A stretch of DNA of 64,000 nt. It comes from Phycisphaeraceae bacterium. Lineage in GTDB: Bacteria > Planctomycetota > Phycisphaerae > Phycisphaerales > SM1A02. Location of the stretch: assembly GCA_019636755.1 (NCBI GenBank), contig JAHBWZ010000006.1:124001-188000 (forward strand), in the 5' to 3' direction. The notes beneath the pieces are model-generated. The model saw only the letters and a list, made by a program, of their open reading frames with translations, was not told the DNA's origin and did no database searches. Within the stretch, counting starts at the first letter, position 1; the number at the start of each line of letters is the position of its first letter. A program made the translations under genes and the position numbers. Below, piece by piece: positions 6,466 through 61,282 of this stretch.

Positions 6466-6495
6466 CCTGGGCTCCGGTCCAACTGGCCTTCGGGC

Positions 6496-6681
6496 TCACC
6501 AGCTCGCCTTGCGCATGCCGGGGACGAGCCCGCGCAGCGCCAGTTCACGCAGAACGATGCGGCTGACACCGAACTTCCTGTACACGCCGCGGGCACGTCC
6601 GGTGATCTGGCACCGGCTCTGCTTCCGCGTCGAGAACTTCGGTTCACGCTTCATCTTGGCAAAGACACGCTTGCTCGCCAT
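6496..6681 (-). CDS. rpsN: 30S ribosomal protein S14, short form without zinc ligands
   Basis: S14 is a head protein of the small subunit. At 61 residues it has the length of the short (type Z) form and its C-terminal signature [13 protein letters not shown]. The two CxxC pairs expected in that form are gone: the segment around residues 22-42 reads [18 protein letters not shown], with one Cys only. It is therefore probably zinc-independent, like L36 in this operon. It follows rplE by 51 bases. Confidence 0.95.
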
Positions 6682-6732
6682 GTACGATCCTCTCCGCCGA
6701 CACCGGCTTCACTGCCGTGCGGCCTGGCATAC

Positions 6733-7329
6733 CTACTTCGATTCCTGCTCCCCGCGACGGACGAACGGCATGCCGATCTCCCGCAGGACAAAGAGACTCT
6801 TCTTCGGATCCGAGTTCCGGAAGACGATGTTGATGTGCATTCCGTGGCTGAACGTCACGTTCGCCATGTTGATCTCCGGCCAGACCGCCTGCTCGGTCAG
6901 GCCGAGGGAATACGTGCCGCCCTTGTCGAACGCCGTGTCCTTCACGCCGCGGAAGTCCTTGATCCGGGGCGTGGCCAGGTTGATCAGGCGATCGAGGAAG
7001 TGCCACATCCGGTCGCGGCGGAGCGTGACCATGAACGCGGACGGCGATCCCTCGCGGACCTTGAAGTTCGCAACCGACCGCTTCGCACGGATCAGGATCG
7101 GCTTCTGACCGCTGATCGTCGTGAGCGTGCTCTGGACGGTCTCGGCGATCTCGGGCTTGAGCTTCTGGTTCTCGAGGAACCGGCCCACGCCGCAGTTCAC
7201 GACGACCTTGAGAAGCCGCGGGGCGGCCATCCGGTTGTCGAGTCCGAACTCCTTCATCGCTGCGGGGAGCACGTTCTCCTCGTAGATCGACTGAAGGCGG
7301 GGCTTCTCGCGTGTTCGTTGCGAAACCAT
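6733..7329 (-). CDS. rplE: 50S ribosomal protein L5
   Basis: L5 binds 5S rRNA in the central protuberance and contacts P-site tRNA and S13. I prefer the ATG at 7329 (MVSQRTREKPRLQ), giving 198 residues; an in-frame ATG at 7353 would add eight residues with no family match. Family motifs are RLLKVVVNCGVGRFLENQK, KPILIRAKRSVANFKVREG and the block DRMWHFLDRLINLATPRIKD. It lies between rplX and rpsN in canonical order. Confidence 0.96.
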   Translation of the reverse strand: MVSQRTREKPRLQSIYEENVLPAAMKEFGLDNRMAAPRLLKVVVNCGVGRFLENQKLKPEIAETVQSTLTTISGQKPILIRAKRSVANFKVREGSPSAFMVTLRRDRMWHFLDRLINLATPRIKDFRGVKDTAFDKGGTYSLGLTEQAVWPEINMANVTFSHGMHINIVFRNSDPKKSLFVLREIGMPFVRRGEQESK

Positions 7330-7427
7330 CGTTCCTGCATCCTCCCGCCGCATCCGGCGGGCTCATGAGTCCTGTTCATCCGGGGAGGCGTCGGCGCCTC
7401 GCCGTCACTGCCTTCGACCGCTCCCGT

Positions 7428-7766
7428 TCACCGATCGGCCGTCGCCTTCTTCAGTACGTGGAGCTTCGATCCGCCCCGCGCGGCGACGCGGACCTTCGAA
7501 CCGTCCGGCTTTGTCTCGAACCGCACGCGGGTCGGACGGCCGTCCACCACCGGACTGACGTTGCTGATGTGGATCGGCATCTCGCGACGCACCATCCGAC
7601 CCTGCGGATTCTGCTGGGTCGGCTTCATGTGCCTGACGCGGACGTTCACGCCCTGCACGACCACCCGGTCCCGGTCCGGCAGCACGCGAAGCACGGTGCC
7701 CGTGGTCCCGCGATCATTGCCCGCGGTCACGATGACGCTGTCGCCCTTGACGATATGACGAGCCAT
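7428..7766 (-). CDS. rplX: 50S ribosomal protein L24
   Basis: L24 is one of the two assembly-initiator proteins of the large subunit. The 112-residue product has an N-terminal KOW motif (KGDSVIVTAGNDRGTTGTVL). It is followed by the block VNVRVRHMKPTQQNPQGRMV and the segment PIHISNVSPV, all typical. Its start codon is one base beyond the rplN stop, so the two are probably translationally coupled. Confidence 0.97.
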   Translation of the reverse strand: MARHIVKGDSVIVTAGNDRGTTGTVLRVLPDRDRVVVQGVNVRVRHMKPTQQNPQGRMVRREMPIHISNVSPVVDGRPTRVRFETKPDGSKVRVAARGGSKLHVLKKATADR

Positions 7767-7767
7767 C

Positions 7768-8154
7768 TCAGATCACCTCCGACGCGAGCGACACGATCTT
7801 CATGTAGTTCTTCTCGCGCAGCTCGCGGGCAACGGCACCGAAGATCCGGGTGCCCTTGGGATTGCCGTCCTCGTTCACGAGCACGCATGCATTCGAGTCG
7901 AAGCGGACGTAGGAGCCGTCGGACCGCCGCGTCGGGTACTTCGTCCGCACGATCACGGCCTTGACCTTGTCGCCCGCCTTGACGTCGCCGTTCGGCAGCG
8001 CCTTCTTGACGGAGCAGACGACACGGTCACCGACGCCGACCGCCCGTCGCGTGAACCGGCCCCGGGCGGTCGAGCCGCCGAGGATGCCGATCACCGCGAC
8101 GACCTTCGCGCCGCTGTTGTCTGCCACTTCGAGCCTGGATTCTCTCTGGATCAT
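7768..8154 (-). CDS. rplN: 50S ribosomal protein L14
   Basis: L14 lies at the subunit interface and forms bridges with 16S rRNA. The 128-residue protein starts [19 protein letters not shown] and has the conserved [20 protein letters not shown] block. It ends with [15 protein letters not shown], a typical close. It is placed between rpsQ and rplX as usual. Confidence 0.98.
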
Positions 8155-8199
8155 TCACTGACACTCCGCGGACCAGTCCGCCGTTCGAGCCGTCCGCGT

Positions 8200-8520
8200 T
8201 CAGGACTTCCGCGAGGCCGTCCCCTCGCCCACGACCCGGATCACGACCCAGCTCTTCGTGCGGGAGATCGGCCGGCACTCGGCGATCTCGACGCTGTCGC
8301 CCACCTTCGACACGTTGCCCTCGTCGTGGACGGCGAGCACGGTCTTGCGGCGGATGAACTTGCCGTACTTCGGATGACGGACCTGGTAGCGGATGGCCAC
8401 CTTCCGCGTCTTGTCGCACGCGCTGGACTCGACCACGCCGATCCGGCGCGGCGAGTTCTCGGGAATCTGGATCTCTTTCAGATGAGCCACGGCCTTCTGA
8501 CCTTTCTTCGCGGCGGGCAA
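8200..8520 (-). CDS. rpsQ: 30S ribosomal protein S17
   Basis: S17 is an OB-fold, primary 16S rRNA-binding protein. The 106-residue product is a little longer than typical (80-90) because of an N-terminal basic leader of about 20 residues. The core is clear: [39 protein letters not shown] and [19 protein letters not shown]. It starts ten bases after the rpmC stop. Confidence 0.97.
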
Positions 8521-8530
8521 GCCCGTCCGA

Positions 8531-8734
8531 TCACGCCTTCACCTTCGCGCCCGACTTCACGCGCCGCTCGGTCAGCAGCCGCGCGATGTCGCGGCGGAGC
8601 ACACCGAACTGCGAGGTGTCCTGAATCTTCTCCGTCACGGCCTGCGTGCGGAGTTCGAACTGCCGCTTCCGCAGGCGACCGACCTCGATGTCGATCTCCT
8701 CGATACTGAGCTTCCTGGCGTCCCTGGCCTTCAT
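8531..8734 (-). CDS. rpmC: 50S ribosomal protein L29
   Basis: L29 surrounds the polypeptide exit tunnel and is part of the docking site for trigger factor and SRP. I chose the ATG at 8734 ([14 protein letters not shown]) because a GGGAGG sequence lies nine bases upstream. The in-frame ATG at 8755 overlaps the rplP stop but adds seven unmatched residues. The resulting 67-residue protein is two helices with the usual [11 protein letters not shown] and [10 protein letters not shown] motifs. Confidence 0.95.
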
Positions 8735-8751
8735 CGCGCATCGCCTCCCGA

Positions 8752-9171
8752 TCACACCGACAGCCGGCGGCCGACGAATCGGCAGCGGACCGGCATCTTC
8801 TGAGCCACGCGGGCGAGCGCCTGCTTGGCCACGGTTTCGTCAACACCTGCGATCTCGAAGAGCATGGTGCCGGGCTTGATCCGTGCGGCCCAGTACTCGG
8901 TATCCGCCTTGCCCTTGCCCATGCGCGTCTCGAGCGGCTTCTTCGACACCGGCTTGTCCGGGAACACCCGGATGTACACCTTTCCCTGCCTTCGAAGGAA
9001 GTGCTGTGCCGCGATCCGGCCTGCCTCGATCTGGCGCGCGGTGAGCCAGTGCGGCTCCAGCGCCTGGAGGCCGTAATCTCCGAAGGACACGTAGTTGCCG
9101 CGCGTCGCATTTCCGCGCAGCGTTCCGCGCATCTGCTTGCGGAACTTGATTCTCTTTGGCATCCGGGGCAT
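8752..9171 (-). CDS. rplP: 50S ribosomal protein L16
   Basis: L16 binds near the A site and the peptidyl-transferase centre. The 139-residue protein has the length and motifs of the family: MPKRIKFRKQMRGTLRGNAT, GLQALEPHWLTARQIEAGRI and RVFPDKPVSKKPLETRMGKG. The start could be this ATG or the one three codons later. It lies between rpsC and rpmC. Confidence 0.98.
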   Translation of the reverse strand: MPRMPKRIKFRKQMRGTLRGNATRGNYVSFGDYGLQALEPHWLTARQIEAGRIAAQHFLRRQGKVYIRVFPDKPVSKKPLETRMGKGKADTEYWAARIKPGTMLFEIAGVDETVAKQALARVAQKMPVRCRFVGRRLSV

Positions 9172-9212
9172 GGGGGTGACTCCTCAGACTCGCGTTCAGT
9201 CCGGCATCCTGC

Positions 9213-9914
9213 TCAGCGACGACCGCGGGCACGGCCCCGCGCTCCGGCGGCACGCGTCTCGATCTCTTCCTCGGCGTCGGAGTACATGCCCTTGTACACC
9301 CAGACCTTCACACCGATCACGCCATACGTCGTCCCGGCGTGCACCTGTGCGTAATCCACGTTGGCCTGCAGCGTCGAGAGCGGGATCGATCCCAGCCGCT
9401 GCTGGAAGACCCGCGACATCTCAGCGCCGCCGAGCCGGCCGGACACCTGGATGCGCACGCCCTTCGCGCCGTTGTTGATGGCGGCCTCGCAGCGCTGCTT
9501 GAGCAGGCGCCGGAAGTTGGCCCGCTTCTTCATCTGCTCGGCGACCGCTTCCGCGATCACCCAGGCGCTCGTGTCCGGGTTCCGGATCTCGATGATCTTG
9601 ACGGCGACCTTGCGGTTCGTCATCGCGATCAGTTCAGCGCTGAGCTTCTCGATCTCCGCGCCCTTCGGTCCGATCACGATGCCGGGCCGGGCCGTCTTGA
9701 CGTAGACCGTCAGTTCCTCGCGGGTCCGTTCGATCACGACGTCGGACACCGCCGCGAACGGGGGCGTCCGGTTGAGCCGCTTGTCGATGAACTTCCGGAT
9801 GCGGTAGTCCTCGACGAGAAGTTCGGCGTACAGCGCCTTCGGGGCGTACCAGCGGGACTTGTGTCCCTCCGTCACGCCGACACGGAATCCGAATGGATGG
9901 GTCTTCTGTCCCAC
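9213..9914 (-). CDS. rpsC: 30S ribosomal protein S3
   Basis: S3 forms part of the mRNA entry tunnel and the ribosomal helicase. The 233-residue protein starts MGQKTHPFGFRVGVTEGHKS, has the KH domain with VYVKTARPGIVIGPKGAEIE and the C-terminal domain with GVRIQVSGRLGGAEMSR. An Arg/Gly/Ala-rich tail follows. It begins three bases after the rplV stop, which suggests coupling. Confidence 0.98.
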   Translation of the reverse strand: MGQKTHPFGFRVGVTEGHKSRWYAPKALYAELLVEDYRIRKFIDKRLNRTPPFAAVSDVVIERTREELTVYVKTARPGIVIGPKGAEIEKLSAELIAMTNRKVAVKIIEIRNPDTSAWVIAEAVAEQMKKRANFRRLLKQRCEAAINNGAKGVRIQVSGRLGGAEMSRVFQQRLGSIPLSTLQANVDYAQVHAGTTYGVIGVKVWVYKGMYSDAEEEIETRAAGARGRARGRR

Positions 9915-9917
9915 GGC

Positions 9918-10250
9918 TCAGTTCCTCTCGTCCAGGACCAGGTGCAGGTGGCTGGTCCGCTTCATGATCGGATGCGCGCGACCGCGATCCTTGGGCTGGA
10001 ACCGCTTGATGGTCGGTCCCTCGTCCACGCGCGACTCGCGCACGAACAGCCGGGAAAGATCCGCGTCCCCCTCCTCGGCGTTGGCGATGGCGCTCTTCAG
10101 CACGGCCCGGTAGTACCACGCGGCACGCTTCGGCGAGAACGTCAGCGCGTTCATCGCCTCGTCGATGCGCATGCCGCGGATCATGTCCGCGACCAGCCGT
10201 GCCTTGCGGGGCGCGATTCTGGCAAATCGATGGATCGCCTGGTAGGCCAT
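9918..10250 (-). CDS. rplV: 50S ribosomal protein L22
   Basis: L22 lines the exit tunnel, and its loop is involved in nascent-chain stalling and macrolide resistance. The 110-residue product has IAPRKARLVADMIRGM near the N-terminus and the loop and C-terminal block IKRFQPKDRGRAHPIMKRTS, ending in HLHLVLDERN. It lies between rpsS and rpsC. Confidence 0.98.
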   Translation of the reverse strand: MAYQAIHRFARIAPRKARLVADMIRGMRIDEAMNALTFSPKRAAWYYRAVLKSAIANAEEGDADLSRLFVRESRVDEGPTIKRFQPKDRGRAHPIMKRTSHLHLVLDERN

Positions 10251-10295
10251 GGTCTTAACCTCGTGTGACGCGGCTGTGCGTGACGCGACCGCGCG

Positions 10296-10583
10296 TCACT
10301 TCGCGCCCCTCTTGATGCCTTCCTTCTTGTTCGTGTGCCCGCGGAAGAACCGCGTCGGCGCGAACTCGCCCAGCCGATGGCCGACCATGTCCTCGGTCAC
10401 GAACACGTCCACGAACTGCCGGCCGTTGTGGACCTGGAACGTCTGGTTGACGAACTCCGGAACGATCATGCACGCCCGCGCCCAGGTCCGGATCGGTGCC
10501 TTGCGGTTCTCGTTCACCAGCGCCTCCACCTTGCGGTAGAGCCGCTCGTTGACGGCGGGACCCTTCTTGAGTGATCTGCCCAT
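10296..10583 (-). CDS. rpsS: 30S ribosomal protein S19
   Basis: S19 is a head protein that forms a complex with S13. The 95-residue product starts [20 protein letters not shown] and has [19 protein letters not shown], then [20 protein letters not shown] and [18 protein letters not shown]. All are family signatures and the length is standard. It sits between rplB and rplV. Confidence 0.98.
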
Positions 10584-10655
10584 GGCTGTCTTCCGATCCT
10601 TTTCCGTCCGGCCCGGCGTTCAGCCGGCCCGTCCTTCGAGATCTCTCCTCGTCCC

Positions 10656-11510
10656 TCAGAGCTTGAGCTGTCCATAACGGCGGCTGCGCCGCCGGCGGAG
10701 AATGAGTGCACTCGTCCACTTCCGGCGGGCGCGCGTCCGGCCGCCCTTCGACTTGACGCCGGTCCGGCTGACCGGCTCCCGGCCGCTCTTCGAGCGGCCT
10801 TCGCCGCCGCCGAGCGGATGGCACATGTGGTCCTTCGCGACGCCGCGCGTCTTCGGACGCCGGCCGAGCCAGCGGTTCCGGCCCGCCTTGCCCAGCGTCA
10901 CGTTGATGTGGTCCGGGTTGCCGACCTGGCCGATGGTCGCGCGGCAGTCGATGAGGACGCGCCGGATCTCGCCGCTCGGAAGCACCAGCGTCGCATAGCG
11001 GCCCTCGCGGTTGGTCAGCCGTGCACCCGATCCCGCCGCCCGGCAGAGCTTGCCGCCCTTGCCCGGCTCGAACTCGATGTTGTGCACCGTGAGACCGGTC
11101 GGAATGAACCGCAGCGGCATGCAGTTGCCCGTCTTCGGCTCGATCGCGCCCGCGCCGCTCTCGACTTCCTCGCCGACCTCGATCCCCTGCGGCGCGACGA
11201 TGTACCGGAGTTCGCCGTCGGTGTACTCGATCAGCGCGATGTGGCACGAGCGGTTGGGGTCGTACTCGATCCCGATCACGCGACCGGTGACGCCGTCCTT
11301 CGTCCGGCGGAAGTCGATGCGGCGGTAGCGCCGCTTGTGGCCTCCGCCGCGGCCTTCCACGGTGATGACGCCGTGATTGTTGCGCCCGCCGGTCCGCTTG
11401 AGCGGCGCGAGCAGCGACTTCTCCGGCTTCTTCTTCGTGACCTCCGAGTGGAGGTTCACGGACGCGTTCCGGCGGGCGTTGGTGACTGGCTTGTACTTGC
11501 GGATCGGCAT
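10656..11510 (-). CDS. rplB: 50S ribosomal protein L2
   Basis: L2 is one of the most conserved large-subunit proteins, needed for subunit joining and peptidyl-transferase structure. The 284-residue product starts MPIRKYKPVTNARRNASVN. It contains GRNNHGVITVEGRGGGHKRR and the signature region CHPLGGGEGRSKSGREPVSR with the functionally important His. It lies between rplW and rpsS. Confidence 0.98.
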   Translation of the reverse strand: MPIRKYKPVTNARRNASVNLHSEVTKKKPEKSLLAPLKRTGGRNNHGVITVEGRGGGHKRRYRRIDFRRTKDGVTGRVIGIEYDPNRSCHIALIEYTDGELRYIVAPQGIEVGEEVESGAGAIEPKTGNCMPLRFIPTGLTVHNIEFEPGKGGKLCRAAGSGARLTNREGRYATLVLPSGEIRRVLIDCRATIGQVGNPDHINVTLGKAGRNRWLGRRPKTRGVAKDHMCHPLGGGEGRSKSGREPVSRTGVKSKGGRTRARRKWTSALILRRRRSRRYGQLKL

Positions 11511-11541
11511 GACTGGTCCCTGCGGGCGGCGATCGCCCGGC

Positions 11542-11820
11542 TCAGAAGAGCTCGATGCGGTCGTCCGGATGGATCTTGACGATCGCCCGCTTCATCACCT
11601 TGCTCTGGTAGAACCCGAAACGATTGCGCCGAAGCTGTCCCCGGCGGTTCTGCGTCGCGACGGAGAGCACGCGCACGCTGTAGAGCGACTCGACGGCGCG
11701 ACGGATCTGGTCCTTCGACGCCGCACGGTCCACCTCGAAGGTGACGCGGTTGTGCTCGGTGGACTCCATCGTCGCCTTCTCGGTCACGATCGGGCGACGG
11801 ATGATCGTGGTCGGTTCCAT
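11542..11820 (-). CDS. rplW: 50S ribosomal protein L23
   Basis: L23 lies at the tunnel exit and docks trigger factor and SRP. I chose the ATG at 11820, which overlaps the rplD stop by one base (TGATG) and gives 92 residues, the normal size; the frame is open further upstream but that part has no family match. Motifs are IIRRPIVTEKATMESTEHNR, VTFEVDRAASKDQIRRAVES and RVLSVATQNRRGQLRRNRFG. The overlap indicates translational coupling to L4. Confidence 0.96.
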   Translation of the reverse strand: MEPTTIIRRPIVTEKATMESTEHNRVTFEVDRAASKDQIRRAVESLYSVRVLSVATQNRRGQLRRNRFGFYQSKVMKRAIVKIHPDDRIELF

Positions 11821-12467
11821 CAGACGGCCTCCTTCCCATGGATCGAGCCGTCGACGAACGCCTTCAGCGTCGCCCGGTCGATCACGAGGAAACGGTGGTT
11901 GAGCAGTTCGAACGCATTGAGCTGCTCCGCCCGGATCGTGTGGCAGCCGTCGATGTTCCGCGCGGAGAGCGCGGCGTTCCGATTTGCCCGGTCCAGGGCG
12001 ACCAGGCAGGTGCGGTTGACGCCGACCGCCTCCAGGGAACGGCGGAAGTCGCTGGTCTTCGGCGCATCGAAGGCCAGCGAGTCGAAGCACTTCACCTCGC
12101 CGTCGACCAGCTTCGCCAGCAGGGCATTGCGGTTCGCCAGGCGCCGCATCTTCTTCGGCATGTCCAGCCGGTAGTCCTCGCGCGTCTTCGTCTTCGCGAA
12201 CGCGACACCGCCGCCCTTGCGGGTGGGCGTGCGGCGGGGACCCACGCGGGCGTTGCCGGTCCCCTTCTGGCGGTACAGCTTCTTGGTGGAGCCTTCGACG
12301 CGGCCGCGATTCTTCGTCCTCGCGGATCCCTGCCGCCGGTTGGCGTGGAACATGACGTACGCCTGCTTCAGCAGCGCGGGTCGGACCTCCGCGCCCAGCA
12401 GCGACTCGTCGATGGCAAGCGTGTCCACCTGCTTGCCGGCTCTGTCGTAGATAGGCAGATCAATCAT
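11820..12467 (-). CDS. rplD: 50S ribosomal protein L4
   Basis: L4 lines the exit tunnel, and in enteric bacteria it autoregulates the S10 operon. I chose the ATG at 12467 (MIDLPIYDRAGKQVDTLAID), with AGGTG six bases upstream. The 215-residue product has the tunnel loop region RRQGSARTKNRGRVEGSTKK and LYRQKGTGNARVGPRRTPTR, as expected. It is preceded by an unusually long spacer (222 bases) that contains a hairpin at the rplC stop. Confidence 0.96.
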   Translation of the reverse strand: MIDLPIYDRAGKQVDTLAIDESLLGAEVRPALLKQAYVMFHANRRQGSARTKNRGRVEGSTKKLYRQKGTGNARVGPRRTPTRKGGGVAFAKTKTREDYRLDMPKKMRRLANRNALLAKLVDGEVKCFDSLAFDAPKTSDFRRSLEAVGVNRTCLVALDRANRNAALSARNIDGCHTIRAEQLNAFELLNHRFLVIDRATLKAFVDGSIHGKEAV

Positions 12468-12673
12468 CGTGTTCACCTGGCGGCCCGCGGCCGCCGTTCG
12501 CCTCACCCTCCACCGTCCGTCGACCCCGGATTTCGACCGGGTGGACTCGACGTACCGACGGGGCAGGGATCTTGACTCGGTTCCTCTGCTCGTACTGTCG
12601 CCACCGTCCGGTTCCCTTCGCGCCGCGGCCGCTCCGCGTGGAGCCGCCGGTCCGGCATTCGGGCCTTGACAGT

Positions 12674-12702
12674 CGCTGGCGCGCGTGTCTTACGCGCCAG
12701 CG
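12674..12702. promoter_or_regulatory. Perfect 10-bp hairpin enclosing the rplC stop codon
   Basis: The arms CGCTGGCGCG (12674-12683) and CGCGCCAGCG (12693-12702) pair perfectly around a 9-base loop. The loop holds the TAA stop of rplC (minus strand, 12692-12690). No T-run follows on the minus strand, so it does not look like an intrinsic terminator. It could set the rplC mRNA 3' boundary, pause transcription, or be chance in GC-rich DNA. Confidence 0.5.
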
Positions 12703-13376
12703 GCAGCCAGTCGGGCTTTCCTCCGCCAGAGCCGCTTCGACGGCTCAAGCCACAGAATTCCATCGTTGGCACCCGGCACCGGACCCTTCACGAGTATGAG
12801 GTTCCGGTCGGGGATCACCTTGATCACGTCCAGGCTGCGGACGGTGATGCGCTCATCACCCATGTGGCCCGCCATCCGCTTGCCCTTCTTCACCTTCGGC
12901 CCCGAACCCCGGTTCGTGGCGTGGCTGGCGATCGAACCGGCGGAGCGGTGCTTCCGCTCGACGCCGTGCGATGCCTCCAGGCCCGCGAAGTTGTGCCGCT
13001 TCATCGGACCGGCGAAGCCCTTGCCCTTGCTCGTGCCCGTCACGTCGACGAACCGGACACCCTCCATGTCCGCCGCGCCCAGCGCCTGGCCGAGGCTGAA
13101 CGCCTGGGCCGCGGCGTCATCGGCCACGCGGAACTCCCGGTGGTGACGCTTCGGCCCGATGCCCGCCTTGCCGTCGTGCCCGATGATCGGCATCGAGGAC
13201 CGCCGCGGCCTGGCGTCGCCGAAGGCGATCTGCACGGCGGCATACCCGTCGCGCTCGCTTGTCTTCACCTGGGTGACGACGCACGGACCGCACTCGATCA
13301 CGGTGACGGGCAGGTTGGTGCCGTCCTCCATGAAGTAGCGCGTCATTCCGATCTTCCGGCCGAGGAGAGCAGTCAT
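12690..13376 (-). CDS. rplC: 50S ribosomal protein L3
   Basis: L3 is an assembly-initiator protein whose extensions reach the peptidyl-transferase centre. The 228-residue protein starts MTALLGRKIGMTRYFMEDG. It has the signature TGTSKGKGFAGPMKRHNFAG and the block SHGVERKHRSAGSIASHATN. The C-terminus has a short basic Ala-rich extension (KARLAAAGA) encoded partly by a hairpin at the stop codon. It is second in the operon after rpsJ, behind a 225-base spacer. Confidence 0.97.
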   Translation of the reverse strand: MTALLGRKIGMTRYFMEDGTNLPVTVIECGPCVVTQVKTSERDGYAAVQIAFGDARPRRSSMPIIGHDGKAGIGPKRHHREFRVADDAAAQAFSLGQALGAADMEGVRFVDVTGTSKGKGFAGPMKRHNFAGLEASHGVERKHRSAGSIASHATNRGSGPKVKKGKRMAGHMGDERITVRSLDVIKVIPDRNLILVKGPVPGANDGILWLEPSKRLWRRKARLAAAGA

Positions 13377-13601
13377 CGTTCGTCCTGTGTCGCGGGCGGG
13401 TCGGCCGCCGGCGGGCGAGGGGGATCTCGGGACTCCCGTCCGCGCGGGGACGCGGGCGAGGGAGCGCGGGGGACGGGCCAGAGGTCACGGCCTCGGCTGC
13501 GAGGCTCGCGGACATGACCGGAGAGGTTCCGTCGGGCGTCGCGCTGCGAAGGGCGGGCCGCTCGACACGGGCCGGGCACGCGCCCGGCATGAACGCGCAG
13601 G

Positions 13602-13910
13602 TTACGCCTTGATCTTGACGAAAACGCCCGCCGGGACCACGAGGCGGTTCAGGGCCTCGATCGTGCGGGCGGTGGCGTCGTAGATGTCGACGATGCGCTT
13701 GTGGGTGCGGATCTCGAACTGCTCTCGCGATTTCTTGTCGATGAACGCCGAGCGGTTCACCGTGTAGATCTCGCGGCGCGTCGGCAGCGGAATCGGCCCG
13801 GCCACGCGGGCGCCGGTCCTCTTCGCATGGTCGACGATCTCGCGTGAGGAGGCATCGAGCGCCTGGTGGTCGTACGCTTCCAGTCGGATTCTGATCTTTC
13901 CGCCAGTCAT
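13602..13910 (-). CDS. rpsJ: 30S ribosomal protein S10
   Basis: S10 is a head protein of the small subunit and, as NusE, a component of transcription antitermination complexes. The 102-residue product has the usual length with [40 protein letters not shown] and [16 protein letters not shown]. It is the first gene of the ribosomal operon here. No fusA, tuf, rpsL or rpsG lies upstream, only a divergent exported-protein gene, and a strong promoter is found about 90 bases before the start. Confidence 0.98.
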
Positions 13911-51158: not shown

Positions 51159-51758
51159 GTGAGCCGACTGACCGAGTCAGCGCTTCGACGCTGGATGGAG
51201 GACCTCGGGCCATCGCTGGTCATCCTGAGCGCCGGGATCTGCCGGGATCGGCATCGGGCCGAGGAGATCGTGCAGGAAGCGTTCGTCAAGCTGTGGCGCT
51301 CACCGCCCGACGCGGGCGAGATCGCGTACCGCTCCTGGCTGAAGCGGGTGGTCACCAACCTGTCGATCAACGCGCTGACACGGACACGGCGGACGGCACC
51401 GCTTCCGGAATCCGGGCAGGAACCCGCCTCGCCCGGTCAGCGGGCCCCCTATGCCGCCCTGGACGACCGGGAAGACATGGAGCGACTGCGGACGGCGCTC
51501 GATCGACTGGATCCGCAGAAGCGCAGCATCCTCGTGCTGCGCGCCCTGGAAGGCCTCTCCTACGACGAGATCGCGACGCATCTCGGTGTGCCGATCGGCA
51601 CCGTGATGAGCCGGTTGAACCGCGCCCGCACCAGTCTCATGGCGATCATGGACGCGATGGCGACCGGCGCGCCACCGGCCGATACCTCCGATGCCTCCGG
51701 CACCTCCGACGCCGCGGATGCGCGGCCGTACCCGTTCCCCCGTTCACACATCGCGTGA
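51159..51758 (+). CDS. ECF sigma factor
   Basis: The 199-residue protein is the third sigma factor of the window. Region 2 contains ICRDRHRAEEIVQEAFVKLW and SWLKRVVTNLSINAL. Region 4 contains LVLRALEGLSYDEIATHLGV and PIGTVMSRLNRARTSL. The C-terminus has a Ser/Thr/Asp/Ala-rich tail of about 40 residues beyond the family end. The start is a GTG at 51159. A zf-HC2 anti-sigma gene lies 63 bases downstream. Confidence 0.9.
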   Translation: MSRLTESALRRWMEDLGPSLVILSAGICRDRHRAEEIVQEAFVKLWRSPPDAGEIAYRSWLKRVVTNLSINALTRTRRTAPLPESGQEPASPGQRAPYAALDDREDMERLRTALDRLDPQKRSILVLRALEGLSYDEIATHLGVPIGTVMSRLNRARTSLMAIMDAMATGAPPADTSDASGTSDAADARPYPFPRSHIA

Positions 51759-51821
51759 CCGCTGCAGGACACCCGTCATCGGTTCCTTCACCTGCACACC
51801 CCGTCACCCTGGACCTGGCCA

Positions 51822-52721
51822 ATGAACGCGTTCGACTGCACCGACATCCTCGCCCTGCTCTCCGGTATCGTCGATGGTGAACTCAAGGAACCGGAACGAC
51901 ACGGGGTGGAGCGCCATCTCGCGGGCTGCGCCGCATGCCGCGATCTGGTGGACCGGGCGGAGTCTCTGGATGCCCTTGTCGTGAGCGACGCGGTCCTGAC
52001 GGCCGGTTCAGAACCGTTCGGAGCAGCATCGCGATCCACGGTGCTGGCGCAGACATCGCGCGCCCGCGGCGTGCATCGCGCCGGCCTGGTCGGCTGGTCC
52101 GGCTGGCTCGTCGCCGCCGCGGTGCTCGGGGCGGCGGTGATCCTGCCGACGCTTCGCCCCTCCGGGACAACGTCGCAGGACGGCGTGATCGCGCCGAGCG
52201 CCGATCGCGGCACGTTCGCCGGCGGCACCGGGACGTCGAGGATCACGGGATCCGGCGTTTCCGGTGCACCCGGCCCGACCGGTGCCTCCAGTGCATCCTG
52301 GAAGCGGAGCTGGACATGGGATGGTGACTCCAGCGCTGCGACCGAGCGGGAGGCGGAAGCGTTCCGGCACTCATCGCTCCGGACCGACCTCGAGTCGCTT
52401 CATGCCGCGGCAGCCCTGATCGAACTCCTGTTCGACGGCGACCCGGAGGGGCGCGAGTTCCAGGACTTCGCGATGATCCAGCGGGCGCGGGAGATTTCGC
52501 TCTACGACGATCTCGCCGCTCGACTGGCACGCGTCCGCCTGCTGCTCGAGCCGACGGACGCGAGCATGGTGATCGCGATGGAGGGCCTGCTGTTCCGGCT
52601 CGTCGGTGGTCCGCTCGAACGGGAAGACCTCGACGAGATCGCGCAGATCGTGCAGTCGCTGGATCTTGCTGCACGACTGCGGCGCATCGCCGACGCGCAG
52701 CTCGCTCGTCGGACGATCTGA
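51822..52721 (+). CDS. Zinc-binding anti-sigma factor with membrane helix
   Basis: The 299-residue protein starts with a zf-HC2 anti-sigma domain: SGIVDGELKEPERHGVERHL then AGCAACRDLV, giving the HxxxCxxC zinc motif near residues 32-39. One transmembrane helix lies near residue 98 (GWLVAAAVLGAAVILPTLRP). A low-complexity Ser/Gly/Thr stretch and a helical exported domain follow (LRTDLESLHAAAALIELLFD, EDLDEIAQIVQSLDLAARLR). It follows the ECF sigma gene and should bind it. Confidence 0.88.
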   Translation: MNAFDCTDILALLSGIVDGELKEPERHGVERHLAGCAACRDLVDRAESLDALVVSDAVLTAGSEPFGAASRSTVLAQTSRARGVHRAGLVGWSGWLVAAAVLGAAVILPTLRPSGTTSQDGVIAPSADRGTFAGGTGTSRITGSGVSGAPGPTGASSASWKRSWTWDGDSSAATEREAEAFRHSSLRTDLESLHAAAALIELLFDGDPEGREFQDFAMIQRAREISLYDDLAARLARVRLLLEPTDASMVIAMEGLLFRLVGGPLEREDLDEIAQIVQSLDLAARLRRIADAQLARRTI

Positions 52722-53180: not shown

Positions 53181-53834
53181 ATGAGAACCGACGACTTCCT
53201 TCGCCACCTGCGCCACGAGCGTGCAAGCGCCATCATCCGCGCGCAGGACGCCCGGGTGGCGAAGGCAGCGATGGATACGGCGGTCGAAGCGGGGTTCCGG
53301 ATCATCGAGTTCACGCTGACAACTCCCGACGCATTCGGACTCATCCGCGACTTCGCGGCCCGTCCCGGCCTCATCGTCGGTGCCGGGACCGTACTGACGG
53401 AGAAGGACGCGGAAGGTGCCGTCACGGCCGGCGCGTCGTTCCTTGTGTCACCGGTGGTCGATCCTGCGGTCATCCGGAAGGCCGGGCAACTCGATGTCCC
53501 GATGATCCCAGGGACCTTCACGCCGACGGAGATGCTCCTGGCCCACCGCAGCGGCGCGCCGCTCGTCAAACTCTTCCCCGGTCCGGAGGGCGGGCCACGG
53601 TACGTCCGCTCGATCCTCGCGCCGTTGCCGTTCCTCCGGATCTTCCCGACGAACGGTGTGCATCTGAACAACGCGGCCGCGTACCTCCGCCACGGATCCT
53701 TCGCCGTGGGATTCACGAATGCCCTCTTCGATCCGGCGGAACTCGCGGCCGGGGACGTCAGCCGCGTGGGGGAGCGCGGCGCGAAGCTGCTGCATGAGAT
53801 CCGGGCCTTCCGCCACCAGTCCGGGGATCAGTAG
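53181..53834 (+). CDS. eda: KHG/KDPG aldolase
   Basis: Eda splits 2-keto-3-deoxy-6-phosphogluconate into pyruvate and glyceraldehyde-3-phosphate, or 4-hydroxy-2-oxoglutarate. The 217-residue TIM barrel has RIIEFTLTTP (Glu43, proton transfer), IVGAGTVLTEKDAEGAV and the Schiff-base Lys in VKLFPGPEGGP near residue 130. The phosphate-binding loop reads PTNGV instead of the usual PTGGV. The 3' end overlaps the convergent proS end by seven bases. Confidence 0.92.
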   Translation: MRTDDFLRHLRHERASAIIRAQDARVAKAAMDTAVEAGFRIIEFTLTTPDAFGLIRDFAARPGLIVGAGTVLTEKDAEGAVTAGASFLVSPVVDPAVIRKAGQLDVPMIPGTFTPTEMLLAHRSGAPLVKLFPGPEGGPRYVRSILAPLPFLRIFPTNGVHLNNAAAYLRHGSFAVGFTNALFDPAELAAGDVSRVGERGAKLLHEIRAFRHQSGDQ

Positions 53835-55366
53835 GACTTCGCCCAGACGACCCGCTTCGGACTCGGGCGACCCGAGAAGGGACACGTTCCCGGCTCATCG
53901 TCCCCGCCGCCGGGCGGAATGCAGCGGATCGTGACGCCGAGATCCTCGTTGAGGCGCCGCTCCACCTCGGCGTCACCGGACCAGTGCGCCAGCGCGAAGC
54001 CTCCATGGATCGGCGTCGGAGCACCATCGGGCGCTTCCGGCGGTGTGAAGAATGCCCGGAAATCCTCGGCCGAATCGATACGGACCGTGTGCTCTTCCCG
54101 GAACGCCAGTGCCCGCTGCGCGATGGCGGACTGAATCTCCTCGAGAATCCCGGCCACGCGATCGATGAACTCGGCGCGCGGGACCGCGACCTTCTCGGAC
54201 GCGGGCCGATCACGGCGACCCATGAATACCGCGTCCTGGGCAATGTCACGCGGGCCGATCTCCAGCCGGATCGGACAGCCGCGCCGGACCCATGACCACG
54301 ACTTCTCCCCTCCTCGAATGTCCCGTTCATCGACCTCGACCTCGACGGGACGACCGCCGTACTGAACGCGCCTGAGATCAGCGGCAAGGGCGTGACACCA
54401 GTCGTACACGTGCTGCGGATTCTCCGCCTTGAACGCGACGGGGAGAATGACGACGTGTGCGGGCGCGAGTCTCGGCGGGAGCACGAGTCCATCGTCATCC
54501 GCGTGCGCCATGATCAGTCCGCCGATGAGGCGCGTCGACACCCCCCAGGATGTCGTCCATGCATGGACACGCTGTCCGTGCTCATCCAGGAACTGGATGT
54601 CCGAGGCCCTGGCGAAGTTCTGCCCGAGGAAGTGGCTTGTCCCTGCCTGCAGTGCCTTCCGATCCTGCATCATCGCTTCGATGCAGAAGGTCTCGACCGC
54701 GCCCGGGAAACGCTCTCCCGGCGACTTCCGCCCGGTCAGCACCGGGAGCGCCATCTCGGTCCGGGCGAAGTCGGCGTAGACATCCAGCATCTGCATCGTC
54801 TCTGCCATGGCCTCGTCAGCCGTGGCATGGGCGGTGTGACCCTCCTGCCACAGGAATTCGGCGGTCCGCAGGAATATCCGCGTACGCATCTCCCACCGGA
54901 CGACGTTCGCCCACTGATTGATCAGCAGCGGCAGATCTCGATAGGACTGGACCCACTTCGCGAACATCGCGCCGATGATCGTCTCACTGGTCGGACGGAC
55001 GATCAGCGGTTCGTCAAGGCGCGCATCCGGATCCGGGACGAGCCCCCCATGTTCACCGGGGATGAGCCGATGGTGGGTCACGACGGCGCACTCCTTGGCG
55101 AAGCCCTCGACATGTTCCGCCTCCTTCTCGAGGAAGGAGAGCGGGATGAAGAGCGGGAAGTACGCGTTGCGGTGGCCCGTCGCCTTGAAGCGCGCGTCGA
55201 GGGACCGCTGGATGTTCTCCCAGATCGCGTAGCCCCATGGCTTGATGACCATGCACCCGCGGACCGGGCTGTTCTCCGCGAGATCAGCGGCGCGGATCAC
55301 CTGCTGATACCACTCCGGGTAGTTCTCTTCGCGGGTCGGGGAGATCGCCGTGCGGGGCGTAGCCAT
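53828..55366 (-). CDS. proS: Prolyl-tRNA synthetase (archaeal/eukaryotic type)
   Basis: ProS charges tRNA-Pro. The 512-residue protein is the short ProRS form without the editing insertion, as in archaea and eukaryotes. Class II motifs are motif 1 in NIQRSLDARFKATGHRNAYF, motif 2 in NVVRWEMRTRIFLRTAEFLW and motif 3 region SWGVSTRLIGGLIMAHADDD. The C-terminal extension ends in RVVWAKSY, with a Cys-containing region (CPFSGRPSP). I chose the ATG at 55366 (MATPRTAISPTREENYPEWY); the frame is open upstream without family match. The end overlaps the eda end. Confidence 0.95.
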   Translation of the reverse strand: MATPRTAISPTREENYPEWYQQVIRAADLAENSPVRGCMVIKPWGYAIWENIQRSLDARFKATGHRNAYFPLFIPLSFLEKEAEHVEGFAKECAVVTHHRLIPGEHGGLVPDPDARLDEPLIVRPTSETIIGAMFAKWVQSYRDLPLLINQWANVVRWEMRTRIFLRTAEFLWQEGHTAHATADEAMAETMQMLDVYADFARTEMALPVLTGRKSPGERFPGAVETFCIEAMMQDRKALQAGTSHFLGQNFARASDIQFLDEHGQRVHAWTTSWGVSTRLIGGLIMAHADDDGLVLPPRLAPAHVVILPVAFKAENPQHVYDWCHALAADLRRVQYGGRPVEVEVDERDIRGGEKSWSWVRRGCPIRLEIGPRDIAQDAVFMGRRDRPASEKVAVPRAEFIDRVAGILEEIQSAIAQRALAFREEHTVRIDSAEDFRAFFTPPEAPDGAPTPIHGGFALAHWSGDAEVERRLNEDLGVTIRCIPPGGGDDEPGTCPFSGRPSPKRVVWAKSY

Positions 55367-55518
55367 GGGGGAATCCGGAGTCTCGGTGGGTGGACGGTCC
55401 GGCAGCACGGCACTGCCGGGAGCCCCGCAGTCTCGCCGCCCGGTTGTCCCGCCGCAAGCGGCGGCGGTGCGCCCGGGGGCCTGGACAGGCATAATCCCCA
55501 GCGGAGCACGCCGCCGGA

Positions 55519-56460
55519 ATGCCGACCCCGACTTTGATCCTTCCGCCCCGGACCACGCAAACCTGGCGGGCGCTCGCAACGGACATCAAGCTGGCCCACA
55601 GCGTCTTCGCGCTTCCTTTCGCCCTTCTCGGCGCCTTCATGGCCGCGCCGCGCACGGGCGCATTCATCGACTGGAGCCGATTCGGTCGCGGCCTTCCGCT
55701 GATCCTCGGCGCGATGTTCTTCGCCCGGACCGCGGCGATGATCGCGAATCGGGTCGTCGATCGGGAGATCGACGCCCGCAACCCGCGGACACGGCATCGC
55801 GCCCTTCCGGGCGGACGTGTGACACTCCGGCAGGCACGGGCCGCGTGGCTCGCGGCGGCAGCGCTCTTCATGGCCACGTGCGCGCTCTTCGGTCCGCTGC
55901 TTGACAACTGGTGGCCGCTGGTCCTGGGACTCCCGGTTCTCGTCTGGCTCTCGGCCTATGGGCTGCTCAAGCGATCGACGGCGGCGTGCCATCTCTACCT
56001 CGGCGCGTCGCTCGCGCTGAGTGTTCCCGCCGCGGCGCTGGCCATCGACCCGGAGGCCATCGGCGCACCACCGCTCTGGCTGCTCGCCGGCATGGTTCTG
56101 ACCTGGGTTGCCGGCTTCGACATTCTCTATGCGCTGCAGGACCTGGAGGTCGACCGGCGTGACGGGCTGCACAGCATTCCGGCATGGCTCGGGGAGACCG
56201 GCGCGATCGGCATCAGCCGAATGTGCCATGCGCTCGCGGCATGTCTGCTGGTGGCGTCGTGGCGACTCGACTCCCGCCTCGGCATGCTCTTCGGCATCGG
56301 CGTCGGCGCCAGTATCCTGCTGCTCGTACTCGAACACTGGATCATCGCGCGGCGGGGACGCGCCGGGATCCCGATGGCGTTCTTCACGCTCAACGGCATC
56401 GTCTCCTGCCTGCTGGGCCTGCTGGGCATCGCGGACCTGATACGCGGGCACGGCGGATGA
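55519..56460 (+). CDS. UbiA-type prenyltransferase (MqnP/UbiA-like)
   Basis: The 313-residue integral membrane protein attaches a polyprenyl chain to an aromatic acceptor in quinone synthesis. It has the two Asp-rich motifs: NRVVDREIDARNPRTRHRAL near residue 80 and DILYALQDLEVDRRDGLHSI near residue 200. The start KLAHSVFALPFALLGAFMAA is typical of the UbiA-like group that includes MqnP of the futalosine menaquinone pathway. Bacteria of this phylum commonly make menaquinone, so MqnP is more likely than true UbiA, but no mqn genes are nearby. It is divergent from proS. Confidence 0.88.
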   Translation: MPTPTLILPPRTTQTWRALATDIKLAHSVFALPFALLGAFMAAPRTGAFIDWSRFGRGLPLILGAMFFARTAAMIANRVVDREIDARNPRTRHRALPGGRVTLRQARAAWLAAAALFMATCALFGPLLDNWWPLVLGLPVLVWLSAYGLLKRSTAACHLYLGASLALSVPAAALAIDPEAIGAPPLWLLAGMVLTWVAGFDILYALQDLEVDRRDGLHSIPAWLGETGAIGISRMCHALAACLLVASWRLDSRLGMLFGIGVGASILLLVLEHWIIARRGRAGIPMAFFTLNGIVSCLLGLLGIADLIRGHGG

Positions 56461-56498: not shown

Positions 56499-57959
56499 TC
56501 AGTTCCGGATACGGGCCCCGAACGGATCGCACCACGTCCGCTCAGGCCGGGACTCGTGCGAGGTCGCCGGGCCGGCAGCCAGGTGTACCCGACGTACGAC
56601 GACCTGGTAGACGTGTTCCTGGAACCATGCATCCGGAACCGGGAGGCGTATGTCACCCGGCGCGCGGCCGTGGCGCCACGCGACGGCCGCGCTGCCGCCA
56701 TGCACCTGAACGTGCCAGCGGCTCGGCGCCTCATCGGTCACGTCGACCGCCGTGACCAGCGCGGCGGCGGTCGGTCCTGCCTGCCGCGCCGACAGTCGCT
56801 CGGCCTTCGTCAGCAGGAGCGCGCTGACGCCGTACTCCGTCACAGGCGCCCCATGGTCCGCGGACTGATCAGGCGGCACGGGATCCGGCAGTGATCCCGC
56901 CGGCACCCCGATCCAGACCGCCTCGCCCGCCCGAAGCGAACGCAGTGCGACGCTCCGCAGGCTCTCGATCGACTGCACCTCGTGGACGGCGCGAGCGCCG
57001 CCGACGACACCGCAGAGATCCGGGCAGGTGAACACGGTCCCTTGCGCAGCGTCGGCCCGCGGATCATGCACCAGGGAGACGTACGCCTCACGATCGAACG
57101 GCACGAAGCGCCGCAGGAAGTCGACTGGTGAGAGCCCCGCAGCGCGATGAAGATCGCCGCCCCTGTCCCGCCACTGCCAGTCGAACCGGTCCGGCAGGGC
57201 GCCGAGCCCGCCCGCCAGAAGCCGGGCGACGGACTGCAGAATCCGGGATCGCGCTGCGCGGGCCGCTTCCACGGGCGCGCCCGCCGCACGAAGCCCCCGA
57301 AGATCAAGGGCGCCGCGTCGCAGGTACATCTCAAGTGTCCGGTGAAGACGATCCACGCATGATCCGGATGGCGCGGGCGACATCATGCATGCAGGAACAC
57401 ATCCGTGCCGGCCGACGATCTCTGCGGCAATGTGCCACTGACCGGTTCGCGGCACCGGCGTTTCGAACTGTGCCACGATGCGCGGGTCATCCATCGGATC
57501 CAGTGCCGTCCTGAGCATGCTGGTCAGGAAGCAGTTCGCCCGCTCCATCCATTCCCAGAAGAGAAAGTGGGACCGGCTCGGGTCGATGTCGAAGCCGCCG
57601 CCATCCGCCCACGCGATCCGTCGGAGCATCTCCAGCATCGGATCGGCCCAGCAGCCTGGGCGCCGATGCCCGCGCGACGCCGACGGCTCCGCGCCCGCAT
57701 CCCACGGCGGCACCGGCACCTCGATCTGCCACACCGGTGGGCCGGCAGCGCTGCCGACCGGGCGTCCGAGCGCACCGGAGTCACCGCCGCAGGCAGCGAG
57801 ACCGGGCGCGCTCACGGGAGTGACTGCCTGAACCTCGCTCCCCGGACCGCCGAACAGGACTTCGACAATGGCCGGGGCCAATTCGTCCGCACGAGCGGCC
57901 GTCCGCGTGGAGGATCCCGGAGTTTCGCGATGCGGTGTTGCAGAGCTGATCGGAGTCAT
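56499..57959 (-). CDS. Bleomycin hydrolase/aminopeptidase C homologue, catalytically degenerate
   Basis: From residue about 115 on, the 486-residue product follows PepC/bleomycin hydrolase along its length: FLFWEWMERANCFLTSML, DPRIVAQFETPVPRTGQWHI, FVPFDREAYVSLVHDPRADA, LCGVVGGARAVHEVQSIESL and DAWFQEHVYQVVV. The active-site Cys is still suggested by RRPGCWADPMLEMLRRIA (normally QxSGRCW). The catalytic His (normally THAM before the VDV strand) is replaced in GPTAAALVTAVDV. The Asn of ENSWG is replaced in RWHVQVHGG. So it is probably an inactive relative of a C1B peptidase. The start has GGAGG six bases upstream, and the first 90 residues are unrelated and low complexity. It is convergent with ubiA. 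Confidence 0.8.
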   Translation of the reverse strand: MTPISSATPHRETPGSSTRTAARADELAPAIVEVLFGGPGSEVQAVTPVSAPGLAACGGDSGALGRPVGSAAGPPVWQIEVPVPPWDAGAEPSASRGHRRPGCWADPMLEMLRRIAWADGGGFDIDPSRSHFLFWEWMERANCFLTSMLRTALDPMDDPRIVAQFETPVPRTGQWHIAAEIVGRHGCVPACMMSPAPSGSCVDRLHRTLEMYLRRGALDLRGLRAAGAPVEAARAARSRILQSVARLLAGGLGALPDRFDWQWRDRGGDLHRAAGLSPVDFLRRFVPFDREAYVSLVHDPRADAAQGTVFTCPDLCGVVGGARAVHEVQSIESLRSVALRSLRAGEAVWIGVPAGSLPDPVPPDQSADHGAPVTEYGVSALLLTKAERLSARQAGPTAAALVTAVDVTDEAPSRWHVQVHGGSAAVAWRHGRAPGDIRLPVPDAWFQEHVYQVVVRRVHLAAGPATSHESRPERTWCDPFGARIRN

Positions 57960-58095: not shown

Positions 58096-59985
58096 TTACT
58101 TCTCGTCACGGACCTCGTACTCGGCATCGATGACGTCGCCGCCACCCCCACCATCCGCCGGCTTGCTGCCGGCCGGCGCCTTCGCCGCCTTCTCATATGC
58201 CGCCTTGCCGAGTTCGGCGGCCGCCTCGTTGAGCTGACGAAGGGCACGCTCGATCGCCTGGCGGTCATCGCCCTTGACCTTCTCCTCGAGATTCGAGATC
58301 GCGGACTCGATCGCGGACCTGACATCCGGGCTCACGTCGGCACCGTGCTCCTCAAGCGCGCGTCGCGTGCCGTACATGACCTGCTCCGCCTGGTTCTTCT
58401 GGTCCACGAGTTCCCGGCGGGTCCTGTCCGCCACGGCGTTCTCGTCGGCCTCCCGCTTCATCCGGTCGATCTCCTCCTTGGGAAGACCGCCGGAGTTCGT
58501 GATCCTGATATCGGCGCTCTTGCCCGTGGTCTTCTCGGTCGCAGTCACCTGCAGGATGCCGTTGGCATCGATGGCAAACTCGACCTCGATCTGCGGCATG
58601 CCGCGATGGGCAGGTGGAATCCCGGTCAGGTCGAACCGACCCAGTTCCCGGTTGTCGGCTGCAAACTCGCGCTCACCCTGGAGGACCCGGATCGTCACCG
58701 AGGTCTGGTTGTCGGCTGCGGTGGAGAAGACTTCCTTCCGTGATGTCGGAATCGTCGTGTTCCGCTCGATGAGCCGGGTCATCACGCCGCCCTGTGTCTC
58801 CACGCCGAGCGAGAGCGGCGTCACATCAAGCAGGAGAACGTCCTTCACCTCGCCCTGCAGCACGCCGCCCTGGATCGCCGCGCCGATCGCCACAACCTCA
58901 TCCGGGTTGATGGACTTGTCGAGATTGTCCGTCCTGAAGAGCTCCTTGGCGATCTGCTGGACACGCGGAATCCGGGTCGAGCCGCCGACCATGACGACCT
59001 CTCCGATACGGGAGGGGTCCACCTTGGCGTCAGCAAGCGCCTTGAGACACGGCTCGCGCAGCCGCTCAAGCAGCGGTGCCGCGATCTGCTCGAACCTGGC
59101 GCGGGTGAGTGTGTGCTGGAGGTGCTTGGGACCGGACTGATCCGCCGTGATGAACGGCAGGTTGATCGAGGTCTCCATCTGCTGCGAGAGTTCACACTTG
59201 GCCTTCTCCGCGGCCTCCTTCAGTCGCTGGAGTGCCATTGCATCGTTGCGGATGTCGATGCCTTCCTTGCGACGGAAGTCCTCCGCGACGTGGTCGATGA
59301 TGACCTGGTCGAAGTCATCACCGCCGAGGTGGCCGTCGCCGTTCGTGGCGAGCACTTCAAAGACGCCGTCACCAACGTCAAGGATCGAGATGTCGAACGT
59401 GCCGCCACCGAGATCGAAGACCGCGATTCTTGCGTTGACCTTCTTGTCCAGTCCGTAGGCGAGCGCTGCGGCGGTCGGCTCGTTGATGATCCGCTCGACC
59501 TTCAGTCCCGCGATCTCCCCGGCATCCTTGGTCGCCTGGCGCTGCGAGTCGTTGAAGTACGCCGGAACGGTGATGACCGCGCGGTCGACCTTCTCCCCGA
59601 GGTAGTCCTCGGCAGTCTTCTTCAGTTCCTGGAGGATCATGGCCGAGACCTCCTGCGGCGTGTACTGCTTGCCGCGGACCTCGACCTTGACGAACTCATC
59701 GCCCTCGCCGACGACGGTGTACGGGACGATCTTTTCCTCGCTCAGGACCTCGTCGTGACGGCGGCCCATGAATCGCTTGATGGAATAGACGGTGTTCTTC
59801 GGGTTGGTCACCTGCTGGTGACGTGCCGGCTGCCCGACCAGGCGATCGGCCTTTTCCGTGAACGCGACCACCGATGGTGTCGTCCGGTTCCCGGTCGAGT
59901 TGATCAGCACCTTGGGCTGACCACCCTCCATCACGGCAACGACTGAGTTCGTGGTCCCGAGGTCGATTCCGATGATCTTCGACAT
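58096..59985 (-). CDS. dnaK: Chaperone protein DnaK (Hsp70)
   Basis: DnaK is the ATP-driven Hsp70 chaperone of the cytoplasm. The 629-residue protein has all signatures: [20 protein letters not shown] at the start, [37 protein letters not shown] in the ATPase domain (to about residue 385), and the substrate domain with [20 protein letters not shown]. The C-terminal lid ends in a Gly-rich linker and a EYEVRDEK tail. It stands alone; grpE and dnaJ are not adjacent. A sigma-54 type promoter lies upstream, and no CIRCE element is seen. Confidence 0.98.
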
Positions 59986-60188: not shown

Positions 60189-61058
60189 TCACTCCACCCG
60201 CCGCCGCGGATCCGGAGGGCGTGGCGCTTCCCGCTCCGGAGAGCCGCTCAGCACGCGTTCTTCTCCGTCGCCCTCAACGATCAGGACCGCATCCGGGCTT
60301 TCGGCGCTGGTCCGCGGCGTCGAGTCGCGTGGTCCCGACGGCGCGGCGATGGCTGCGCCGACGCGGCGCGTCGTCCGGCCCCACCGATGCCGGTCCCGGG
60401 CCTCAGCACGGTCACCGAACGCCTTCAGGGACGCCGGCAGCCGGCTCAGTGCCTGTTCCCACCGGGCCTCCAGGTCCGTCATACGGATGTCGTCCTCGCT
60501 GCCGGAGACACCGTCCGGTCCCCATGACAGCAGGTCAAAGGGGAGTCGCTCGTTCCCGGCCCTGTGCTCCAGGACGTAGGCGTTGCCCCAGGGATCGAGC
60601 CGGGTCGCGGCGTCGATCGAGAGGCCAGCGAGGTCGGGCAACCCGCCCTCCGTGCCCCGGCGATCGCTCTCACCCACGATCGCGTCGGCAATGTTGTACA
60701 TGTCGGCCGTGATCGTGACGAGGGGTGTTTCTGCGGTCACCAGCGCGAACATCGCGAGAACCGCCAGGCCTGCGAGACTGAACGCCAGGGCAAGAACAGC
60801 CCCGAGCATGAGCGCGCCCCAGACGAGGACGCCGATCAACCCGATGAGAACCCCCAGAATGGCGAAGAGCCGGGGTGGGCGCCCAAGGGCCGCCATCGAA
60901 AGGATCAGGCCGAGGAGCGCGAGAACGCCCGTCGGGACGAAGAGCCCGACGACCGCCAGAAGGAACCCGGCGACCGCAAGGCCGTTGTGCTGAGGCACGG
61001 GCATCATGACGACCGGCATCGATTGGACGGGTTGAACTGGCTGCATGGCGATGCTCAT
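60189..61058 (-). CDS. Membrane protein with GspG-like C-terminal domain
   Basis: The 289-residue product (ATG at 61058; longer readings possible) starts with a Gln/Pro/Met-rich segment. Three or four hydrophobic helices follow (AVAGFLLAVVGLFVPTGVLA, LFAILGVLIGLIGVLVWGAL, LGAVLALAFSLAGLAVLAMF), resembling DUF4190-type proteins. A soluble part carries a motif of type II secretion major pseudopilins: RLDPWGNAYVLEHRAGNE and FDLLSWGPDGVSGSEDDI. There is no pilin-type N-terminal methylation site, so this is a GspG-like fold on a multispanning anchor. The C-terminal 70 residues are Arg/Pro/Ser/Glu-rich. It is upstream of dnaK on the same strand but separated by 203 bases and the sigma-54 promoter. 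Confidence 0.7.
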   Translation of the reverse strand: MSIAMQPVQPVQSMPVVMMPVPQHNGLAVAGFLLAVVGLFVPTGVLALLGLILSMAALGRPPRLFAILGVLIGLIGVLVWGALMLGAVLALAFSLAGLAVLAMFALVTAETPLVTITADMYNIADAIVGESDRRGTEGGLPDLAGLSIDAATRLDPWGNAYVLEHRAGNERLPFDLLSWGPDGVSGSEDDIRMTDLEARWEQALSRLPASLKAFGDRAEARDRHRWGRTTRRVGAAIAAPSGPRDSTPRTSAESPDAVLIVEGDGEERVLSGSPEREAPRPPDPRRRVE

Positions 61059-61282
61059 TCCGAGAGCCGGCGGCGCGCTTTCAAGGGCGGGGGCACGGCC
61101 CCATGAGTTCCTGCGTCTGAGAGTCGGCTGCACGGCCTCACCGGTTCAGTCAGCCGCGCCTTACGCGGGCTGCCTGCGTGTCCGGGAACTCGCAGCGGAC
61201 CGCGGCCGCTGCTCGCGTTCCCGGGCGCCCCACGACGCCCCTCAGCGGGACAGGGCTGCACCGAGGCGCCGTCCTTCCGGCG

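Follow-up and report, generated by a model that had tools for sequence, protein, structure and literature searches.

The window, the whole stretch of 64,000 nucleotides analysed here, carries a pepC-like gene between a ubiA-like prenyltransferase gene and dnaK. In the gene list of the window, which comes from simple ORF calling, this gene is a complete open reading frame of 486 aa (56499-57959, minus strand) with an ATG start and a single stop at its end. A Pfam profile search revealed that PF03051 (Peptidase_C1_2) covers residues 103-472 with an E-value of 2.6e-55, and the score of 188.5 bits against a cut-off of 22 places the protein within the family. The top solved-structure match is 4k7c, "Aminopeptidase C" (E 8.4e-47), followed by bleomycin hydrolases and yeast Gal6. 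These E-values put the family match far above chance. NCBIfam returned no family for this protein. GGAGG precedes 35 of the 1647 ATGs and one of the 51 called ORFs, which made a Shine-Dalgarno check uninformative. The pepC-like gene is the single PF03051 match in its genome (G000), the assembly of which comprises 4.1 Mb in 20 contigs and is 99.4% complete. The features used below are as follows.

53828..55579, minus strand: family I proS; marker for synteny and control for rate (from synteny)
55519..56460, plus strand: convergently oriented ubiA-like prenyltransferase gene next to pepC; marker for synteny and control for rate (from synteny)
56499..57959, minus strand: diverged pepC orthologue (C1B / PF03051), predicted to be catalytically dead, 486 aa (from the ORF, Pfam and gene order)
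56517..56534, minus strand: WCDPFG, counterpart of the C-terminal WDPMG in relatives (from alignment)
56694..56711, minus strand: VQVHGG in place of VENSWG, with Val419 for the catalytic Asn (from alignment)
56760..56774, minus strand: PTAAA (residues 396-400, TAAAL region) in place of MTHAM, with Ala398 for the catalytic His (from alignment)
57648..57701, minus strand: loop DAGAEPSASRGHRRPGCW replacing the oxyanion Gln motif, Cys103 kept and Gln lost (from alignment with relatives)
57651..57653, minus strand: Cys103 codon TGC, retained (from the sequence)
57654..57959, minus strand: residues 1-102, at the place of the N-terminus in relatives; similarity not recognisable, codon signal the weakest of the ORF (from profile and codon score)
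58096..59985, minus strand: dnaK, same-strand upstream neighbour; synteny marker (from synteny)

Gene neighbourhood of pepC

The pepC and ubiA genes are convergent and at most 5.3 kb apart in 19 of the 28 relatives; they lie on separate contigs in eight and far apart on one contig in the remaining one. The order proS(-) ubiA(+) pepC(-) dnaK(-) in one relative (L136) is identical to that in the window, and in another (L138) the proS-ubiA-pepC-dnaK block is inverted and accompanied by GspG-like stretches. We found dnaK near pepC in three of the six relative regions examined (L136, L137 and L138). This shared gene order therefore identifies the window gene as the positional orthologue of pepC in an ancestral dnaK-pepC-ubiA-proS neighbourhood.

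Adjoining dnaK in the window, 60189-61133 (minus strand) encodes a protein in which residues 177-215 form a short T2SSG / GspG-like stretch, and the two GspG-like stretches of L138, located upstream of dnaK, are similar to it. The family I proS gene (53828-55579, minus strand) is patchy among the relatives: 19 of the 28 match at 65-73% identity and nine match weakly, suggesting a different ProS type in those nine genomes.

Loss of the catalytic residues

Catalysis by C1 peptidases relies on four residues, Gln, Cys, His and Asn. Compared with 19 relatives, NQKKSGRCW (NQxxSGRCW) has become SRGHRRPGCW, MTHAM has become PTAAA and WRVENSWG has become WHVQVHGG. The catalytic Cys is present as Cys103 within PGCW. 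At the oxyanion-hole position, six residues before this Cys, there is Gly97; residues 87-104 contain no Gln, and about six additional codons separate the conserved Trp from Cys103 in our reading of the alignment. Ala398 and Val419 occupy the positions of the catalytic His and Asn, and the flanking Met, Glu, Ser and Trp are lost along with Gln, His and Asn. The original prediction, made from the letters of this DNA, that the catalytic His and Asn were replaced and the Gln element changed is therefore borne out by the alignment, with Cys103 alone kept.

No catalytic motif was found in the alternative reading frames at the motif sites, which rules out a compensated or local frameshift there. The gene shows neither the internal stops nor the frameshifts of a pseudogene: its frame is open and the altered motifs are read without a frameshift, in agreement with the earlier statement that the peptidase part is free of frameshifts. 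If the protein folds as a C1B peptidase, hydrolysis of peptides by the known mechanism is not expected, since the oxyanion Gln and the catalytic partner of the Cys are absent; C1B-type catalysis should therefore be lost.

Catalytic residues in the relatives

A match at E <= 0.001 was present in 60 of the 181 genomes of the family, G000 included, and in 75 of 400 genomes of the order sample and 29 of 392 of the phylum sample. Members of the family can do without pepC: 121 of the 181 genomes are without a match. A scan of genome contigs added three relatives, all labelled Planctomycetota bacterium. No relative was found in viral contigs, and plasmids yielded 13 records, at 22.8-28.8% in the ten matches listed and none closer than the chromosomal relatives. 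Identity of the pepC-like protein to any relative found does not exceed 36%. Two matches considered as decay relics, in G018 and G179, proved to be canonical pepC cut by contig ends (70% to the canonical protein). A third such candidate, a G021 match with four stops, did not match canonical pepC in L131 and was treated as chance.

Gln, Cys, His and Asn are intact in all 68 aligned relative rows (64 distinct genes). Among the genomes compared, the losses of Gln, His and Asn are confined to G000, the sole genome of its genus there. The catalytic loss is therefore lineage-specific and not a conserved feature of the family, and losses shared among orthologues, which would support a pseudoenzyme, were found in none of the aligned orthologues. 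The original prediction had held that orthologues with intact His and Asn would speak against it; the losses are indeed not conserved, His and Asn being intact in 68 of 68, and in part this refutes it.

Accelerated divergence and compositional drift

In trees with the relatives, PepC of G000 has a terminal branch of 2.53 substitutions per site (28 relatives), compared with a median of 0.22 and a maximum of 0.48 for the other members. The corresponding branch is 0.68 for UbiA (others: median 0.38, maximum 0.81; 27 of the 28 relatives, without G108, which has a stop inside the match) and 0.28 for ProS (others: median 0.23, maximum 0.35; 18 of the 28, nine giving only weak matches and G004 being left out with a stop inside the match). 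The normal rates of UbiA and ProS therefore make the acceleration specific to the pepC-like gene. The same pattern is seen in the invariant columns, of which G000 keeps 73/137 for PepC (28 relatives), 66/66 for UbiA and 209/209 for ProS; in leave-one-out comparisons every other member keeps at least 95% of the invariant PepC columns. Mean identity of the pepC-like protein to the family members is 0.315, whereas the members average 0.60-0.72 among themselves (G038 and G211 not included). The description of a conserved dead scaffold in the original prediction was thus apt as to "dead" and too strong as to "conserved", because the loss is not common to any orthologue and little more than half of the invariant columns are kept.

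Gly, Ala, Arg and Pro together account for 41% of the aligned residues in the pepC-like protein and 25% in the relatives; the shares of Phe, Tyr, Met, Ile, Asn and Lys are 9% and 25%, respectively. The composition has drifted toward GC-rich codons. The peptidase part has a net charge of 0 (65 relatives: median -9, range -20 to 18) and the entire protein contains one Lys, which leaves the proposed DNA/bleomycin-binding cage unsupported.

The N-terminus had been described as an unrelated stretch of 90 residues that favoured a new function. Relatives also have about 90-105 residues ahead of the Cys, so this is a normal N-terminal stretch and not an added domain. Scored with a profile built from the N-termini of the relatives, that of the pepC-like protein reaches -2.0 bits, a value equalled or exceeded by 133 of 1000 shuffles, and the region is better described as the usual N-terminal stretch in diverged form.

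Neutral decay or retention

The main rival explanation is that the gene is degenerating: pepC would have become dispensable and drifted, with a stop or frameshift yet to arise. The fast terminal branch (2.53), the GC-driven drift in composition, the many genomes of the family that lack pepC and the presence of the Gln, His and Asn losses in no orthologue are all consistent with this explanation, as are the unrecognisable N-terminus and a weak codon signal. Per codon, the entire ORF scores 0.026, less than any of the 23 accepted ORFs longer than 300 aa in the window, the lowest of which scores 0.077, and the synonymous codon score of the first 102 codons is -0.035; these codons look unconstrained.

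However, neutral simulations argue against degeneration. The runs took the back-translated family consensus as a stand-in for the true ancestor and used a simple mutation model that excluded indels, which, if included, would be expected to lower the odds of an open frame. When halted at 57% of invariant residues left, they had acquired a mean of 4.6-7.2 stops, depending on base composition, and the real gene has none. Only 4 of 900 runs were stop-free at matched invariant loss. None of 900 was stop-free at matched identity to the consensus, although this matching also includes ordinary divergence and so overstates the time.

The distribution of changes is also uneven, saturated catalytic codons standing side by side with protected ones. 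At 115 invariant codons, the minimum number of base changes was 0, 1, 2 and 3 in 64, 25, 19 and 7 codons, respectively; 26 codons thus carry at least two changes, compared with 8.3-8.6 under uniform neutral decay (sd 2.7-2.9). The MTHAM and VENSWG codons together carry at least 14 changes against 6.0-6.4 expected (sd 2.0), a level reached in 0 of 600 runs. A model with protected and free sites fitted better than uniform neutral decay, with 2dlnL of 32-33 for all invariant codons and 16-18 for the 70 well-anchored, gap-free ones. In this two-class fit, 46-50% of the invariant sites are protected and the free sites have taken 1.3-1.7 changes per site, long enough for a frame without protection to have acquired an expected 20-43 stops. 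These counts and the fit used 34 of the 68 relatives (L002-L035).

Synonymous usage in the peptidase part likewise exceeds the neutral expectation: its score of 0.060 compares with simulation means of -0.085 to -0.012 (sd 0.04-0.05) and lies in the low range of the longer ORFs of the window (minimum 0.015, median 0.154, n=23). On the other side, speaking against retention, loss is only weakly enriched around the active site, where 7 of 19 residues are kept compared with 36 of 55 far from it (p 0.035, uncorrected; p 0.03-0.10 at four other window sizes). This comparison used 64 of the 68 relatives, L130, L037, L038 and L039 being omitted as duplicates or likely duplicates; the L037 contig and the G100 contig are both 58863 bases long.

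Taken together, these results make degeneration possible but rather unlikely. We favour, as the better and on balance probable reading, a fast-diverging pepC orthologue that lost catalysis long ago and has been retained in a non-catalytic form. The loss itself is seen in the sequence; selection on the product we infer, by simulation and the two-class fit, from a single sequence, G000 being the sole genome of its genus compared and its losses recurring in none of the aligned orthologues.

Other explanations

It is improbable that the protein is a still-active enzyme that combines Cys103 with migrated residues, for example another His. Cys103 is retained in a GCW context, His416 and His420 adjoin the former Asn position, and some pseudoenzymes may have migrated residues, as noted in PMC10211241; against this, Gln, His and Asn are all gone, and so are Met, Glu, Ser and Trp beside them. 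An origin as a distinct paralogue or by horizontal acquisition of a C1B protein, in line with a best identity of 36% to any relative, was rejected by gene order and the single PF03051 match and is highly improbable, since the position in the conserved gene block is unchanged, the gene is the sole C1B gene of its genome and its top-scoring matches fall within its own family.

A putative non-catalytic role

For the favoured reading, a retained non-catalytic orthologue, the substitution pattern suggests the following course of events. Catalysis would have been lost long ago in the pepC of this Planctomycetota lineage, as the mutational saturation of its catalytic motifs indicates, and the product would then have been kept under weak, site-specific purifying selection as free sites drifted under GC pressure. 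In C1B enzymes, the C-terminal WDPxG is part of an arm reaching the active site. Since this motif is still readable as WCDPFG although the known mechanism should be lost, the protein may act non-catalytically, most likely as a putative folded assembly of C1B type with peptides or another protein as its binding partner. AlphaFold2 gave a mean pLDDT of 30.9 for the pepC-like protein and 40.9 for a canonical control, with four sequences each, both too low to define a fold. As to the new binding or regulatory role of the original prediction, the neutral-decay tests favour retention of the protein, and the putative role would follow from that retention.

More tentatively, it is conceivable, though doubtful, that a C1B cage was converted into a non-catalytic protein without gene duplication, its active-site surfaces being rebuilt, possibly under positive selection, with about half of the invariant framework held, and that a peptide- or partner-binding assembly thereby replaced the peptidase.

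The protein resembles PepC and bleomycin hydrolase (C1B, PF03051) in its homology over residues 103-472, in the Cys and many structural residues and in genomic position, and differs from them in lacking the catalytic Gln, His and Asn and in its low mean identity. Dead members of papain-like families are already known: according to PMC10318531, TINAG, TINAL, menin and the Rad4 family are non-catalytic papain-like proteins. They are likewise of papain type, read as inactive and used in binding or scaffolding, but they belong to other papain-like families and not to PF03051. We found no description of a dead C1B/PF03051 member in the abstracts of the open-licence literature, a body from which subscription journals are mostly absent, or in the accessible part of PMC10318531.

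If retained, the gene would offer a clean natural case of an enzyme turned pseudoenzyme without gene duplication, being syntenic and single-copy and having intact orthologues for comparison. If it is only decaying, it illustrates that a protein labelled "C1 family peptidase" on the basis of a profile may be one for which peptidase activity is not expected.

Other genes of the window

A sigma-70-type factor is followed by a putative zinc finger zf-HC2 protein at 51159-52721 (plus strand), likely a sigma/anti-sigma pair, and a relative of the sigma-70-type factor lies near pepC in L134, L135, L139 and L037. At 876-13910 (minus strand), there is a series of short ORFs with a strong codon signal, which are ribosomal-protein-like by their N-terminal residues alone.
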